Source of the DNA: Chitinophagaceae bacterium
GTDB lineage: Bacteria; Bacteroidota; Bacteroidia; Chitinophagales; Chitinophagaceae
Assembly: GCA_027486835.1 (NCBI GenBank)
Contig: JAIXOJ010000197.1
Location: forward strand, 1-37,739
Length of the DNA stretch: 37,739 nt
Reading direction: 5' to 3'
The translations under genes and the position numbers were made by a program. This document shows, in pieces, positions 9,329-16,278 of this stretch. The notes below the pieces were generated by a model that saw only the letters and a program-made list of their open reading frames with translations, ran no database searches and was not told the origin of the DNA. Position 1 is the stretch's first letter; every line of letters begins with the position of its first letter.

Positions 9329-10708
9329 ATGGAATCGTGGACATCTTTTCAAGAAGCCAATAAAGAACGCTTCTTAGACGAATTGCTAGCACTCTTGCGC
9401 ATCCCCAGCATCAGTGCCAAATCTGAAAACCAAGCTGATATGGCCAACTGTGCCGAAGCCGTTAAGCAACGCCTGCTCGAAGCTGGTGCAGACACCGTTA
9501 TTATTTATCCCACCGCTGGGCATCCTGTGGTTTATGGCGAGAAAATAATCGACCCTGGCAAGCCCACTGTTTTGGTTTATGGCCACTACGATGTACAACC
9601 TGCCGACCCACTCAACCTTTGGAATTCGCCTCCTTTCGAGCCAGTAATCATCGATGGAAAAATCTTTGCTCGCGGTGCTTGTGATGATAAAGGGCAGGTG
9701 TATATGCACATCAAAGCATTAGAAACCTTGGTGCAAACCAACACCTTAGGTAACAACATTAAATTTATTATCGAAGGGGAAGAAGAAATTGGTAGCCCCA
9801 ATTTGGCCACCTTTATAAAAGAGCACAAAGCATTATTAAAAGCCGACGTTATTTTAATCAGCGACACCTCTATGCTAAGCATGGAAACCCCATCTATAGA
9901 TACGGGTGTGCGTGGGTTAAGCTATATAGAAGTAGAAGTAACTGGACCCAACCGCGATTTACACAGCGGCGTTTATGGCGGTGCGGTGGCCAATCCAGCT
10001 ACGATGCTAGCTAAAATGATTGCCTCTTGCCACGATGAAAACAACCATATCACCATCCCAGGTTTCTACGATGATGTGCTAGAATCATCACCTGCCGAAA
10101 GAAGCAAACTAGGCGAAGCCCCCTTTGACGAACAAGCTTTTAAGCAAGATTTGGGTATCGAAAGCCTATGGGGCGAAGCTGGTTATACTACCAACGAACG
10201 CACAGGTATCAGACCCACTTTAGAAGTCAACGGCATCTGGAGTGGCTACACTGGCGAAGGGGCAAAGACCGTATTGCCTTCAAAAGCTTTTGCCAAAATA
10301 TCTGCCCGCCTTGTACCCAACCAATCCTCGGCAGACATTACCCAAAAGCTCATTAATCATTTTAAAAGTATTGCTCCTTCAGGCGTAACTGTAAATGCAT
10401 GGGAACACCACGGTGGCGAACCCTACCTTACACCTATTGATAGTATAGCCTATCAAGCTGCTGAAAAAGCCATTGCCACCACTTTTGGCAAAGCCCCCAT
10501 CCCCCTTCGTGGCGGTGGAAGCATACCAATTTGTGCTTTGTTTGAACAAGAATTAGGCATCAAAATCGTATTCATGGGCTTTGGTTTAGACAGCGACAAT
10601 CTACACAGCCCCAACGAAAAATACGATGTCTTCAATTTTTATAAAGGCATCGAAACCATTCCTTATTTCCATCAATATTACACGGAATTGTTTTTGAAGG
10701 GGGAATAA
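9329..10708 (+). CDS. M20 family metallo-dipeptidase (carnosinase/CNDP-like)
   Basis: M20 dipeptidases use two metal ions, usually zinc, to hydrolyse dipeptides or short peptides in the cytoplasm. The 459-aa protein has the family motifs in order: 'YGHYDVQP' with metal ligand H86 and D88, 'ARGACDDKGQ' with bridging D119, 'IEGEEEIGS' with general base E152 and metal ligand E153, the dimerisation-domain start 'DLHSGVYGG', and near the C-terminus 'FGLDSDNLHSPNE' carrying the last histidine ligand. The length is usual for CNDP-type enzymes. There is no signal peptide. The substrate range cannot be told from the sequence. Confidence 0.92.
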   Translation: MESWTSFQEANKERFLDELLALLRIPSISAKSENQADMANCAEAVKQRLLEAGADTVIIYPTAGHPVVYGEKIIDPGKPTVLVYGHYDVQPADPLNLWNSPPFEPVIIDGKIFARGACDDKGQVYMHIKALETLVQTNTLGNNIKFIIEGEEEIGSPNLATFIKEHKALLKADVILISDTSMLSMETPSIDTGVRGLSYIEVEVTGPNRDLHSGVYGGAVANPATMLAKMIASCHDENNHITIPGFYDDVLESSPAERSKLGEAPFDEQAFKQDLGIESLWGEAGYTTNERTGIRPTLEVNGIWSGYTGEGAKTVLPSKAFAKISARLVPNQSSADITQKLINHFKSIAPSGVTVNAWEHHGGEPYLTPIDSIAYQAAEKAIATTFGKAPIPLRGGGSIPICALFEQELGIKIVFMGFGLDSDNLHSPNEKYDVFNFYKGIETIPYFHQYYTELFLKGE

Positions 10709-10738
10709 TCTTGTAAAATGTTATAGCCTAATTTCACC

Positions 10739-10781
10739 CATCGCAGTTTCCATAAATTAGCTATTTATGGGAGCTGCGATG
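10739..10781. repeat. Long bipartite hairpin downstream of the dipeptidase gene
   Basis: CATCGCAG (10739-10746) pairs with CTGCGATG (10774-10781), and inside it CCATAAAT (10750-10757) pairs with ATTTATGG (10763-10770), with 3-base internal loops. There is no T tract. It may be an RNA 3'-end stabiliser, a Rho-independent terminator of poor quality, or one copy of a dispersed palindromic element. Confidence 0.55.
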
Positions 10782-10965
10782 GTGTTTAATGCTTACAATA
10801 AAGGGTGTAAGGGTATTAATTTGAGGAAATAAAAAGGAATATTCATTTGTAAGAATTATTGGAACTAATTCTTTTTATACAGAATTCACCCATGCCTCAG
10901 CAAGTTTCCCCATTAACTACAAGTTTACTTCATAATTTTTCGCTCTGCATAATACCTATTTAAAG

Positions 10966-12114
10966 ATGCTACTTCATTCACTTGAAATAAGGAATTTTAG
11001 GAATCTCCATGCGCTAACCATCAAAGCTTTAGGCCGCGTTAATTTGTTTACGGGAAAAAACAATACTGGTAAGTCATCATTGCTAGAAGCGATAGCCTTG
11101 TATGCAACAAAAGGCGACTTGGGTTTTTTATATCAATTATTAAATGAGAGAGGGGAGAAGTACCAGCTTAGAGACGGGGAAGATAATGCAACAACAATAA
11201 ATGTAAAGGCTCTTTCCTCCCTTTTCTCAGATAGAAAAATTGGCTTCGAACAGAAGGATGCCCTATTCATTGGTAGTATCGAAAAAAAGGAAACAGGAGC
11301 GCAACAGCATTCAGATGAAAATTTTGTAGCGATAAGATTGGTTAAATTTTTTGATGAAGTAAACAATTATATTGCGAATGAACACAACCGGCCTTTGAGA
11401 AAAAAAAGGGTCATCATAGAAAATGAAAAAGACGGGATAGTAGTAGATTACAGTATTGGGCTTGAAGTCCGTTCAGGGAATAATGCGTATGTTTTTCATT
11501 TAGATAATGAGCAACCCTACAAATATTTTTCAGGAACAATTGGCACTCCCACCAATATTCAATTCATTAGAACAAGAATTATTGATAGGGCATTAAACGG
11601 CAAACTATGGGATAATATTACATTGTCTGAAAAAGAAAGTTATGTGATTGAAGCTTTAAGAATCATAGAGCCAGATGTAGAGAGAATAGCATTTGTAGAA
11701 GAAAGCTCAAGTGAAAGAACGGCAATACTCAAATTAAAATCGAATAGCACGTTGCTTCCGTTGAAAAGTATGGGAGATGGAATAAATAGAGTGCTAACCA
11801 TCATTTTAGCCTTGGTAAATTCCGACAATGGGTTTTTATTAATTGATGAATTTGAGAATGGGCTTCATTATTCTGTTCAGGAAAAATTATGGAAAATCAT
11901 TTTCTCCCTTTCTGAAAAATTGCATGTGCAGGTTTTCGCAACCACGCATAGCGAAGACAGCATCATAGGTTTTGAGAATAGTTTGAATGATAAAGAAATG
12001 CACTCCGATGGTAAATTATTTCGCTTCGATAATGTGAATGGATCTGCACAGCTAGTAGAATTTAATGCTGTGGAGCTCAGAATTGCAAGTACTGAAAATA
12101 TTGAAATACGCTAG
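10966..12114 (+). CDS. AAA/ABC-type ATPase of the OLD-like (AAA_15/AAA_21) group
   Basis: The 382-aa protein starts with the 'LEIRNFRNLHALTIKALGRVN' opening of RecF/OLD-type ATPases. It has Walker A 'GKNNTGKSS' (about 29-37), an ABC-like signature 'KSMGDGINR' (about 266-274), Walker B 'GFLLIDEFENGLH' (about 288-300) and a switch histidine in 'ATTHSED'. The middle third (about 60-220) is variable and charged and may hold the coiled-coil or sensing insertion. There is no nuclease domain in this chain. The next gene, one base after the stop, encodes a stand-alone TOPRIM protein, so the pair splits the two halves of an OLD protein. By analogy with AbiL and PARIS the ATPase may sense phage and release or activate the TOPRIM partner; that is inference. 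Confidence 0.88.
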   Translation: MLLHSLEIRNFRNLHALTIKALGRVNLFTGKNNTGKSSLLEAIALYATKGDLGFLYQLLNERGEKYQLRDGEDNATTINVKALSSLFSDRKIGFEQKDALFIGSIEKKETGAQQHSDENFVAIRLVKFFDEVNNYIANEHNRPLRKKRVIIENEKDGIVVDYSIGLEVRSGNNAYVFHLDNEQPYKYFSGTIGTPTNIQFIRTRIIDRALNGKLWDNITLSEKESYVIEALRIIEPDVERIAFVEESSSERTAILKLKSNSTLLPLKSMGDGINRVLTIILALVNSDNGFLLIDEFENGLHYSVQEKLWKIIFSLSEKLHVQVFATTHSEDSIIGFENSLNDKEMHSDGKLFRFDNVNGSAQLVEFNAVELRIASTENIEIR

Positions 12115-12115
12115 T

Positions 12116-12730
12116 ATGAGTCAGTTTCGTAAGCAACTTTTAGTGGAAGGCAATGACGATAGGCATGTGATGCTGGCACTTTGTAAACAATTCAACATTC
12201 CCAAAAACTTTGAAATTATTGACTGCAATGGTATTGACAATTTGTTGATGCAAATTCCTGTTAGACTCAAACAATCCGATGTTAAGTCTTTAGGAATTAT
12301 AGTAGATGCAGATACGCACATTAAGCAACGGTGGAATGATTTACAATCTATTTTTTCTAAACAAGGGATTAATTTTCCAAAGGATATTCCAAAAGGAGGT
12401 TTAGTGTATCATGCAAATGATATAACCATAGGTATTTGGATTATGCCCAATAACTCCCTGAATGGCACTTTAGAAGATTTTATTTCTTTTTTAGTTCCTC
12501 AAGGTGATAAACTATGGACAGTAGCAAAGCAAGTAGTGGATGAGATTGAAACAAAACAGTTAAACAGGTATATACCCACCCACCAATCAAAAGCGTTAAT
12601 TCACTCTTGGTTATCTTGGCAAGAAGACCCCGGCACACCACTAGGGCTCGCAATCACAAAAAAGTTTTTAACAACACAAGACATGAATTGCTTGAAACTA
12701 ATGGAGTGGTTAGTTGAAACATTTCGGTAA
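12116..12730 (+). CDS. DUF3226-like TOPRIM protein, partner of the upstream ATPase
   Basis: From the ATG at 12116, one base after the TAG of the ATPase gene, this encodes 204 aa; a frame open further upstream overlaps the ATPase gene and is not needed. It shows the TOPRIM acidic set: E11 in 'LLVEGNDD' and D64-x-D66 in 'LGIIVDADTH'. The later part has 'DITIGIWIMPNNSLNGTLEDF' and 'ALIHSWLSWQEDPGTPLG', which I associate with the DUF3226 family. TOPRIM domains with E and DxD bind Mg and often cut nucleic acid (OLD, RNase M5, PARIS AriB). Tight coupling to an AAA ATPase suggests a defence effector; nuclease activity is not shown by the sequence alone. Confidence 0.82.
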   Translation: MSQFRKQLLVEGNDDRHVMLALCKQFNIPKNFEIIDCNGIDNLLMQIPVRLKQSDVKSLGIIVDADTHIKQRWNDLQSIFSKQGINFPKDIPKGGLVYHANDITIGIWIMPNNSLNGTLEDFISFLVPQGDKLWTVAKQVVDEIETKQLNRYIPTHQSKALIHSWLSWQEDPGTPLGLAITKKFLTTQDMNCLKLMEWLVETFR

Positions 12731-12919
12731 GTGAAAAATAAGAATACCTAAAGTTTTGTTTATACTAATCTGGTTATTGGATGTTTAGAAGCGTATTTTT
12801 CTTTAGTGCGATAATAAGCAATCTATCTATTGCATAAAATATTTTTTTGTACACCTTTTGACCTCTTATAAATTAAGTACCCTTTCATTAGCCCTTTATA
12901 ATTAACGGATACCCCCAAC

Positions 12920-13753
12920 ATGAATACTACCAACTACCAGATTAAACTACCACATTTCGAAGGACCATTCGATTTGTTGTTGTTTTTTATTGAGCGGGAT
13001 GAATTAGACATCTATAACATTCCCATTACCAAAATAATGAACGATTTTCTTGACTATATACATACTCAAGAAACACTCAATATTGAGTTGAGTAGTGAAT
13101 TTATTTTGTTTGTTGCCACGCTCATGCGCATCAAGGCAAGGCTACTACTACCAAGAAAAGAAGTGGATCCAGAGGGTAATGAAATTGATCCAAGGCAAGA
13201 ACTGGTAGATAAAATATTAGAGTACAAGCGGTTCAAGGAAGCTTCTGTTGAAATGGCAGAAATGGAAGCAGAACGATTAATGATGGTAAAGCGAGGCAAT
13301 CTCCACGCCGAACTTGCCGCTATTGGCGAACTTTGTGGTGAAGGGACGGAGCTGCAAACCCTAACTGTTTTCAAGCTCATGAAAGCTTTTGAAAAAGTAA
13401 TGCTCCGTGTACATGCCCGTGAAAACAAGCCCGTACATACTGTTGTACAATACAATTATACCATGGAGGGGAGTCGTGAACACATGCTAGCCTATGTGAG
13501 AGAAGCAAAGCAAGTACCCTTTGAACAAATTTTTCAATTATGTAAAGACCGGATACACGCACTTTTCTTGTTTCTTTCATTGCTAGAGCTTTCACAACAA
13601 CGCTACATGACCTTATTAATAGGAGAGGGCCGCAATAATTTCATTGTAGAATGGAACGAAAACCGCGATGAGGAACTGGCCATCCATCCTGAAATTAATG
13701 AAATGGTCTTTGATGAACCTCCTATTGACGAAGACAGGTTCTCCAAAAATTAA
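12920..13753 (+). CDS. scpA: Segregation and condensation protein A (ScpA)
   Basis: ScpA is the kleisin subunit that bridges the SMC heads and recruits ScpB in chromosome condensation and segregation. The 277-aa protein opens with the ScpA hallmark 'FEGPFDLLLFFIERDELDIYNIPITKI', followed by 'FILFVATLMRIKARLLLPR'. It has a charged central helix and a C-terminal winged-helix-like part ('FLFLSLLELSQQRYMTLLIGEG') that contacts the SMC head. scpB and smc are not in the window. The gene stands alone with its own terminator and lies 190 bp after the AAA/TOPRIM pair. Confidence 0.94.
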   Translation: MNTTNYQIKLPHFEGPFDLLLFFIERDELDIYNIPITKIMNDFLDYIHTQETLNIELSSEFILFVATLMRIKARLLLPRKEVDPEGNEIDPRQELVDKILEYKRFKEASVEMAEMEAERLMMVKRGNLHAELAAIGELCGEGTELQTLTVFKLMKAFEKVMLRVHARENKPVHTVVQYNYTMEGSREHMLAYVREAKQVPFEQIFQLCKDRIHALFLFLSLLELSQQRYMTLLIGEGRNNFIVEWNENRDEELAIHPEINEMVFDEPPIDEDRFSKN

Positions 13754-14124: not shown

Positions 14125-16278
14125 ATGAAAAAGATTTCTTTTGTGAAAACCGTATGGTTAGGTGTAAGTAGTATTGTAATGCTGCTGGGGTTATTGAGTA
14201 AAAATGTTTGTGCGCAAACGGCAAGTACTTATGTGCAAAGTATTGGTTATCTAGGTGCAATAACAGTGGATTCAAGTGGAAATGTTTTTGTACTAGGAAG
14301 AGGTGGTCAATCCATAATAAATAAAATCACACCTACTGGTGTGCTTTCTATCATTTATGCGGGTATCAGAAGTGGCAGCAATCAAACAACATTTGTTATG
14401 GATAAGGCTGGTAATTTCTTTTTGCCTGATTCAAAAAAACCTTATGGGTTTTCTACTTATGGTATTTCGAAAATAACTAGTGCAGGTGTTAAAAGCATTA
14501 TTGTAGATACCGGTTCAGGTTCTGTTTTTAAACAGATTACGGGCTTAGCTATAGATAGCTCAGGCAATCTTTTTGCAGCAGATTATCAGAACAATGCTAT
14601 TTACAAGATTTCTACTTCTGGCGTAATTAGTCCTTTTATAACCACAGGAATTAGCGGCCCCTTGGCAATGACAATGGATGGTAATGGAGATTTATTTGTA
14701 TTAAATTCAGCAGGCAACTCTATAGTACAAATAAAACCAGACGGAACTATTTCCACTTTTTACAATGGCAATTTTTCAGATAACCCAATTGGTTTTGCAT
14801 TTGGCGACAACAATAATTTATATGTCTTATGTTATGGAAAAAAGATTTATAAGTTAGATGCTTCTGGTACTTTAGTAGATTCAATTACAACGGCAAACTA
14901 TTCTAATGCTATTTGTGTTGATAAATTAGGCAATATATATACTGGAAACACCAATTACTCGGTTTCTAAAATTTCAAACACAGGGGCGGCGTCCTACCTT
15001 ATTCCTCCCTACATTTATCCTAATACCTATCTGCAAAACATACTGATTGATAATCAGAATAATCTGTTATTTACTGGTAGAATGTCAGACTCTAACAAAT
15101 ATTATATAAATAAGGTTAGTGCAAGCGGTGCAATTAGCAGATTTTCCAGTAATAGCTATTTAAGTTCAATAGTCGCAATGACAAAAGACTCATCAGGCAA
15201 TATTTACTTGGCTTCGGATTCTTCTATAGTATCTATTGCTAATAATGGTGCAGCAACTACTTATGCTTCTACGAATATTGTTTACATCAATACATTGGTT
15301 AAAGACAAATTAGGTAATTTATTTTTTTCTTCAAACAATCCTAATTTATACAAGATTAGTCCTTCAAAAACAACTACACTATTTGCTAAGCTTCCAAGTA
15401 ACATCGTTTCAACTGCTATTGACGATTCTGGTAACATATATATTGGTTGTAGTGATACTTATTTAGGAGTAAATACTAAACTCTATAAAGTAGATAAAAC
15501 AGGAAATCAAACATTGGTATTAACCTTAGGGATAGCTTATATAGCTGGAATGGTGTTTGATAATAACAACAATTTGTACCTGTCTGCAAATCGGTATAAA
15601 AGTATTTTAAAATTATCTCCATCGGGGGTGCTATCCACTTTTGTTAATTCAAATTTATATGGCCCAAGATCTTTGGCATTTGATAACGATGGCAATTTAT
15701 ATGTGGGTAATGACAGTACTTTTATCATTAGTAAGATTGTCTTACAAACATTGCCCGTTCAATTAGTCAATTTTAAAGCAAGCATTTCTCAAAAAGCTGT
15801 GATTACCAATTGGCAAACGGCTAGAGAAAAAAACGCCAAACTGTTTGAAATACAGCGCAGCCTTGATGGATTGTCTTTTTATACCATTGGGCAGGTATCT
15901 GCCAAAGGAAATGGTGCACATGAATATTCGTACACAGATCATTCGCCAGCCTTAGGTGTAAATTACTATCGCCTTCAAGTGATAGATCATGATGGCACGA
16001 TAAGTTTTAGTGAAATAGCAAAAGTGGTGAACGGTGAAGCAGCTGACGACTTCGCTGTTTTTCCTAATCCAGCTAAGAATATCATTACCATCAACGGTAA
16101 GTTAATTAACCATATCAGTCTATACAACGCAGAAGGTAAATTACAGCTTTCAAAAGACTGGAAAGACGCCACCAACCCAACCATTGATTTGGGACAACTG
16201 CACAGTGGGGTGTATTATGTGCATATTAGCAGCAGTAGAAAAACAAAGCCAGTTGTGCTGCCGCTAGTAAAGGAATAA
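14125..16278 (+). CDS. Secreted beta-propeller protein with T9SS type A sorting domain
   Basis: The 717-aa protein has a signal peptide ending near 'NVCAQ' (about residue 31). From about 40 to 535 it carries some twelve repeats of a D-x-x-G-N-hydrophobic-aromatic motif (DSSGNVFV, DKAGNFFL, DSSGNLFA, DGNGDLFV, DKLGNIYT, DSSGNIYL, DDSGNIYI, DNDGNLYV and others). These are typical of NHL/SMP-30-like propeller blades. 'LPVQLVNFKA' opens a fibronectin-like domain (about 545-635) often found before the tail. The end ('FAVFPNPAKN', then 'GVYYVHISSS') is a type A CTD recognised by the type IX secretion system, so the protein should cross the outer membrane and be released or surface-attached. The ligand is unknown. 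The T9SS core genes are not in the window, though gldFG are. Confidence 0.9.
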   Translation: MKKISFVKTVWLGVSSIVMLLGLLSKNVCAQTASTYVQSIGYLGAITVDSSGNVFVLGRGGQSIINKITPTGVLSIIYAGIRSGSNQTTFVMDKAGNFFLPDSKKPYGFSTYGISKITSAGVKSIIVDTGSGSVFKQITGLAIDSSGNLFAADYQNNAIYKISTSGVISPFITTGISGPLAMTMDGNGDLFVLNSAGNSIVQIKPDGTISTFYNGNFSDNPIGFAFGDNNNLYVLCYGKKIYKLDASGTLVDSITTANYSNAICVDKLGNIYTGNTNYSVSKISNTGAASYLIPPYIYPNTYLQNILIDNQNNLLFTGRMSDSNKYYINKVSASGAISRFSSNSYLSSIVAMTKDSSGNIYLASDSSIVSIANNGAATTYASTNIVYINTLVKDKLGNLFFSSNNPNLYKISPSKTTTLFAKLPSNIVSTAIDDSGNIYIGCSDTYLGVNTKLYKVDKTGNQTLVLTLGIAYIAGMVFDNNNNLYLSANRYKSILKLSPSGVLSTFVNSNLYGPRSLAFDNDGNLYVGNDSTFIISKIVLQTLPVQLVNFKASISQKAVITNWQTAREKNAKLFEIQRSLDGLSFYTIGQVSAKGNGAHEYSYTDHSPALGVNYYRLQVIDHDGTISFSEIAKVVNGEAADDFAVFPNPAKNIITINGKLINHISLYNAEGKLQLSKDWKDATNPTIDLGQLHSGVYYVHISSSRKTKPVVLPLVKE

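Follow-up and report, generated by a model that had tools for sequence, protein, structure and literature searches.

Introduction

Among the systems that combine an ABC ATPase with a TOPRIM domain, the OLD proteins are divided into four classes, next to at least 11 uncharacterised clades, in one account (PMC12796447), and the number of OLD classes is posed as a question in another (PMC10568477); TOPRIM-linked ABC ATPases of the OLD type are also described as a pervasive theme among BREX-linked conflict systems (PMC12839542). In PARIS, as presented in PMC12409363, the ATPase AriA holds the TOPRIM protein AriB until a phage protein frees AriB.

Here, we have analysed a pair of adjacent genes from a Chitinophagaceae genome, located in a stretch of 37,739 nucleotides (the whole of this stretch is referred to as "the window"): the first gene encodes an ABC ATPase, and the second gene encodes a 204-residue protein with the domain of unknown function DUF3226. 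The pair is probably a horizontally moving, two-gene module of the split OLD/PARIS kind, which would act against phages (or mobile elements) by means of a TOPRIM nuclease that is gated by the ATPase; in this reading, DUF3226 becomes a nuclease effector whose catalytic residues can be named and put to the test.

The gene pair and its surroundings

The features of the locus are listed below with their positions in the window, where the counts of conservation refer to 27 aligned ATPases and to 52 homologues of the DUF3226 protein.

9329..10708, + strand: left flank, M20-family peptidase (dipeptidase), housekeeping (Pfam)
10738..10782, no strand: hairpin with 20-nt arms, 3' of the dipeptidase gene; doubtful as a part of the module
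10966..12114, + strand: OLD/Rad50-type ABC ATPase, PDC-M38A, AbiLi-like, 382 residues; proposed infection sensor and gate
11053..11076, + strand: Walker A motif GKNNTGKS, residues 30-37 (from the sequence); G30, N32 and K36 invariant in 27 homologues
11251..11580, + strand: residues 96-205 of the ATPase, a variable lobe, proposed to sense the trigger (from the conservation in 27 homologues and the G006/G007 identity)
11767..11850, + strand: ABC signature-like SMGDG (268-272) to Walker B LLIDE (291-295); G270, G272, D294 and E295 invariant in 27
11947..11949, + strand: switch histidine H328, invariant in 27
12103..12111, + strand: C-terminal tail E-x-R (E380, R382); R382 invariant, E380 in at least 90% of 27
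12116..12730, + strand: DUF3226 TOPRIM protein, PDC-M38B, 204 residues; proposed nuclease effector
12146..12148, + strand: glutamate of TOPRIM motif I, E11; 51/52, the remaining one a gap
12305..12313, + strand: TOPRIM D64-x-D66; D64 in 52/52, D66 in 43/52, with N in seven and E in two
12473..12475, + strand: E120, in the motif P-N-N-x3-G-x-L-E; 50/52
12590..12592, + strand: K159; 48/52, plus three with R
12920..13753, + strand: right flank, scpA, housekeeping (Pfam SMC_ScpA)

The initial annotation, which was made from the sequence alone, had read the first gene as an OLD-like ATPase and the second as a TOPRIM protein that follows it after one base; both readings are borne out, with the ATPase motifs at G30-S37, S268-G272, 291-295 and H328, a single base between the stop codon TAG of the ATPase (12112-12114) and the ATG of the DUF3226 gene (12116), and E11, D64 and D66 at the positions that had been claimed. 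The same annotation had seen the pair as an inserted cassette, and empty sites in congeners, at two polymorphic positions, agree with this; the two arguments that it had offered are not supported. The "lone" scpA is a housekeeping gene, which adjoins the dipeptidase gene in 8 of 12 congeners, and the hairpin (arms 10738-10757 and 10763-10782; z = -7.1) is single-copy in the genome, where its other matches are short and at chance level. As a cassette end, the hairpin has been ruled out, with neither a second copy nor a direct repeat within 10600-13000; since it begins 29 nt past the stop codon of the dipeptidase gene, it reads as a 3' stem of that gene. Inverted repeats with arms that flank the module or lie within it are weak in the same interval (e.g. 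18 nt, 83%). The GC content, 0.36 in the module genes against a mean of 0.38 (sd 0.035) in 28 chosen ORFs of the window, those of the module included, is uninformative as a sign of foreign origin. Further along the window, at 14125-16278, lies a gene for a 717-residue, secreted-looking protein, which we take to consist of repeated beta-propeller-like units and to carry a tail like the sorting signals of type IX secretion.

Both proteins have been catalogued before: in PADLOC, the ATPase matches PDC-M38A (PDLC04611, 2.3e-97, profile positions 1-383 of 383) and its partner matches PDC-M38B (PDLC04624, 8.1e-65, positions 12-218 of 220). By these profile matches, the pair is a member of the already catalogued PDC-M38, from which we have found no difference. 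The letters PDC stand for "phage defence candidate" (PMC11514479), and such candidates derive, according to PMC12988326, from a "guilt-by-embedding" search. In the open-licence literature, we have found no paper on the pair under the names DUF3226, PF11536 or PDC-M38; the module is less described, as had been supposed, with respect to its function, and not with respect to its existence, given the PADLOC entry.

The ATPase

In Pfam, the ATPase matches AAA_15 (6.4e-25) and AAA_21 (6.1e-19), and the 204-residue protein matches positions 2-207 of the 208 of DUF3226 (PF11536, 4.8e-66); with the E-values of AAA_15 and DUF3226 at this level, the domain assignments are not due to chance. Among the NCBIfam models, none is above its cut-off for either protein. 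The AlphaFold2 model of the ATPase (pLDDT 87.9) is placed by Foldseek, among its best 50 matches, next to Rad50, SMC heads, PtuA and the Gabija complex, at 1.5e-14 to 2.4e-10.

The ATPase alignment, A2, comprises 26 of the 35 loci that were found with peptide patterns, together with the window (27 sequences); it omits L076, L089, L095, L096, L098, L101 and L103, and the near-duplicates L086 and L100. All 27 ATPases end in an arginine, with a nearly invariant glutamate two positions before it (E-x-R-stop). This tail is also retained at loci without an overlap between the two genes, e.g. in the window, and is therefore no by-product of an overlapping start codon; from its conservation, it may be an element that docks the partner.

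The DUF3226 TOPRIM protein

For the conservation of the DUF3226 protein, 52 full-length homologues were kept from 67 non-redundant sequences (84 matches), 15 fragments, splits and fusions having been dropped and one probable outsider, L109, being included. The acidic residues on which the TOPRIM reading had been based are conserved across these homologues in the counts that are listed above, and P111 is kept in 51/52. A second alignment, A1, comprises 27 of the 35 pattern-found loci and the window (28 natural sequences), and omits L071, L089, L095, L096, L098, L101, L102 and L103 (short, split or joined); the invariance of GIWIMPNN in A1 is partly built in, as this was a search pattern, and E11, D64, D66, E120 and K159 lie outside the patterns.

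The AlphaFold2 model that was built from A1 has a mean pLDDT of 95.3 and a pTM of 0.90. Its best Foldseek matches in the PDB are the C-terminal region of Xanthomonas OLD (3.7e-4 and 1.1e-3), followed by the C-terminal region of Burkholderia OLD (1.4e-2), AriB (2.3e-2) and Thermus OLD (3.8e-2), with RNase M5 at rank 19 (0.26); only the top match is below 0.001, and the query-normalised TM-scores are low, at 0.23-0.44 for all of these matches and at 0.30-0.44 for the five best OLD and AriB matches. In Pfam, OLD-like_TOPRIM gives a weak match, 0.018, under its cut-off. The predicted structure has the TOPRIM fold, at low TM-scores to OLD and AriB, and the protein is a likely nuclease.

The comparison with PDB sequences gave no significant match for the single DUF3226 sequence. 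The A1 profile reaches AriB at E=0.12, which is not significant, with the motif LLVEG in register and E11 aligned to E26 of AriB; for the AriB mutant E26A, PMC12409363 reports that the wild-type cleavage products are missing. The top match of the same profile, an engineered repeat protein, has been set aside as an artefact of short repeated pieces.

Pairing of the two genes

The pairing is nearly constant. Among the loci that were found with the DUF3226 profile, the window excluded, 31/33 have a relative of the ATPase immediately upstream in the same orientation, a count that includes L065, a single-chain OLD-like protein which the DUF3226 profile matches weakly; the two exceptions are L056, which is a fragment, and the probable outsider L007, at the locus that is also labelled L109. 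Among the pattern-found loci, the corresponding count is 31/35, with L095 having only the start of the ATPase; of the four misses, L076, L098 and L101 start at a contig edge, and L103 does not. The divergence of the partners is correlated in 38 chosen pairs (Mantel r 0.80, with 0 of 5000 permutations as high), a correlation that could be explained by common descent alone.

At L095 (4903-6600), the start of the ATPase is joined to DUF3226 in one ORF, apparently through an internal deletion in the ATPase; among the long ORFs examined, we have found no natural ATPase-DUF3226 fusion that is usable for modelling the interface, L065 and L095 being unsuitable. The probable outsider (L109:9245-10015, on contig C235 of genome G036) is a lone TOPRIM-like protein of 256 residues, which matches DUF3226 weakly and has no adjoining ATPase; a neighbouring gene presumably resembles SufB.

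Distribution and mobility

DUF3226 matches occur in 5/59 near genomes, own genome included, in 3/12 other congeners, and in 17/395 genomes of the phylum sample (own genome and fragments included), so the module is patchy; the universal conservation at a fixed housekeeping position in Chitinophagaceae that the initial annotation had named as a refutation is not seen. By record titles, DUF3226 is present in several bacterial phyla; the only match among 14 control genomes is in the archaeon Methanocaldococcus jannaschii.

The insertion sites are polymorphic. The site of the window is empty in 8/12 congeners, where the dipeptidase gene adjoins scpA and the matched ends are only about 80-130 nt apart; the other four were not judged, since each gene has a contig of its own or scpA gave no match. 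In the congeners G006 and G007, the module lies at another site, between the gene of 5-formyltetrahydrofolate cyclo-ligase and lpxK, which is empty in six congeners (G001, G003, G004, G005, G011 and G012), with the cyclo-ligase and LpxK proteins of G004 being 97-99% identical to those of G006; G000, G002, G008, G009 and G010 were not judged for this second site, with no ligase match in the stretch examined.

Copies are also found on plasmids (9 of 72,556 records match), mobilizable and small plasmids being among the four that were read, and broken copies occur, as short matches in G012, G324 and G353 and with in-frame stops in G245 and G301. In the phage and viral collections, we detected no copy, one of these searches being sensitive to close relatives only. 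The pair is, from these observations, a patchy, horizontally moving cassette, and its patchiness, its polymorphic sites and its plasmid and broken copies make a housekeeping role unlikely. On the 9.7-kb plasmid p4_060092 of Acinetobacter cumulans (L126), the pair is located together with tet(39).

Defence neighbourhood

In one genome of the same phylum (G353, locus L112), the pair is embedded in a defence operon: it is flanked by HmaB and HmaC, which are encoded on its strand, with a further protein of 268 residues (Pfam HATPase_c_4) between the pair and HmaC. In the same operon (L112:4075-14079), a PIN-domain protein is located ahead of HmaB. At another locus (L116), a PD-Lambda-4_A gene is found two genes downstream of the pair.

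Of the linkage with defence islands for which a survey had been proposed, the Hma embedding is one instance; in general, the linkage is not clearly seen. When 202 neighbour ORFs (208 from 37 chosen loci, minus six of the window) are compared with 92 control ORFs, taken from the same contigs in 14 stretches, there is no clear excess of PADLOC families near the pair, the tallies being per family only and two of the three lists holding 25 of 40 and 25 of 50 families; the families listed for the control genes are all methyltransferases. When neighbours were scanned singly, 15/19 had no PADLOC match; in a subset of ten of these, nine had none and the tenth is an FtsK, which matches SspH and mad8. 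Some copies, that of the window included, stand alone amid housekeeping genes. The defence context consists of one clear embedding and one neighbour, and is not an enrichment.

The variable ATPase lobe

Residues 96-205 are the least conserved part of the ATPase: across the 27 homologues, the fraction of the most frequent residue is 0.22-0.27, whereas residues 1-50 reach 0.59 and residues 266-335 reach 0.70. The two congeners that share the second site differ most in the same region, with 55% amino acid identity between G006 and G007, against 75-96% in the other three regions of the protein (96% in residues 266-380). In the DNA of the two loci (L104:14218-15976 in G006, L105:7864-9622 in G007), the identity over residues 96-205 is 66%, with a low of 53% in one 100-nt bin.

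The DUF3226 gene of the same two genomes is 92% identical in both amino acids and nucleotides, and the adjacent lpxK is 94% identical in protein and 83% in DNA; as the ATPase and lpxK have dS values that are high or undefined, we have relied on the identities alone. That the DUF3226 DNA is more alike than that of lpxK suggests a separate, recent exchange. In this one genome pair, the middle lobe behaves, as we propose from the sequences, as a fast-changing sensor would, and its difference may reflect a sensor cassette that has been exchanged or diversified; part of the variability would also be explained by a relaxed constraint on loops. Similar effectors, divergent lobes in two congeners and empty sites together form a natural series, which lends itself to the question of where, in a split OLD system, the phage trigger is read.

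Proposed mechanism and alternative explanations

By analogy with PARIS, the ABC ATPase would be both sensor and gate, forming a complex with the DUF3226 TOPRIM protein and keeping it inactive; a phage product would be recognised by the middle lobe (approximately residues 96-205), whereupon the ATPase would change and the TOPRIM protein would be released or activated. It would then cut nucleic acid by two-metal chemistry through E11, D64 and D66, aided by E120 and K159, with either tRNA (as AriB) or DNA (as OLD) as the substrate, and the cleavage would stop the infected cell, from which protection would follow. Within this same module, the TOPRIM protein may be a DNA nickase or nuclease like OLD and GajA that targets phage DNA and not tRNA, a version that falls slightly short of being the probable one: the OLD C-terminal regions of Xanthomonas and Burkholderia precede AriB among the Foldseek matches, and the sub-threshold OLD-like_TOPRIM match points the same way, whereas the nearest relevant PDB sequence to the family profile is, at its non-significant E-value, the tRNase AriB, and the arrangement of a free-standing effector next to its own ATPase is that of PARIS. 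A more specific proposal, which we put forward tentatively and regard as rather unlikely in its entirety, is that DUF3226 is a further, independent free-standing TOPRIM effector, an RNase (probably for tRNA) that is held through the E-x-R tail of an AbiLi-like ATPase, and that the middle lobe serves as an interchangeable cassette for reading the trigger, which strains exchange or diversify while the gene for the effector is retained or travels on its own.

Two explanations depart from the sensor-gated defence module altogether. The pair could serve as a toxin-antitoxin system or for the maintenance of a plasmid or cassette, with the TOPRIM protein as toxin, the ATPase as antitoxin and no specific anti-phage trigger, as its compact operon, its presence on small plasmids and the label "AriA antitoxin" in PDB entries would allow; we consider this unlikely, given that both proteins match defence-candidate models, that one copy is embedded in an Hma operon and that the ATPase varies in the manner of a sensor, and a basal state like that of a toxin-antitoxin pair is compatible with sensor-gated defence as well. 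A host function in repair or the cell cycle has in its favour the Rad50/SMC type of the ATPase fold and the archaeal OLD-class protein Cran1, which is described as essential in the cell cycle (PMC12796447); it is very improbable for a pair that is patchy within its genus, occupies polymorphic sites, is carried on plasmids and across phyla, and exists in fragmented copies.

Comparison with known systems

The initial annotation had placed the pair beside PARIS and AbiL, with a different and shorter TOPRIM type, and this placement is sustained by Pfam, PADLOC, AlphaFold2 and Foldseek. With AbiL, the resemblance is confined to the ATPase, which matches the AbiLi model over its whole length (PDLC02336, 5.6e-55, positions 2-340 of 340), the next-best model under a name other than PDC-M38A among the best 25 of 116 PADLOC families. 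AbiLii is of the RloB type; the DUF3226 protein has no RloB domain and no AbiLii match at E<=1, assuming that PADLOC holds an AbiLii model. With PARIS, the pair shares the split layout of ATPase and TOPRIM protein: the ATPase matches AriA in the PDB at 2.9e-7 and the AriA models at best at 3.7e-25, far below PDC-M38A and AbiLi among the same best 25 families, and the TOPRIM model matches the AriB fold distantly (Foldseek, 2.3e-2), but it has 204 residues against about 310 and no AriB or DUF4435 match at E<=1 in Pfam and PADLOC. With classes 1-3 of OLD and with GajA of Gabija, the pair has in common an ABC ATPase and a TOPRIM domain, the C-terminal folds of OLD being the nearest; in class 1 of OLD, the two are part of a single polypeptide, whereas the window has two genes, and their neighbours are a peptidase gene and scpA, not a helicase or a reverse transcriptase. 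Judged by these profile and fold matches, the pair is neither PARIS nor AbiL; the analogy with PARIS, together with the variety of TOPRIM and OLD systems that is described in PMC12839542, PMC12796447 and PMC10568477, makes it a pair of a known kind, in which DUF3226 is an uncharacterised effector family.
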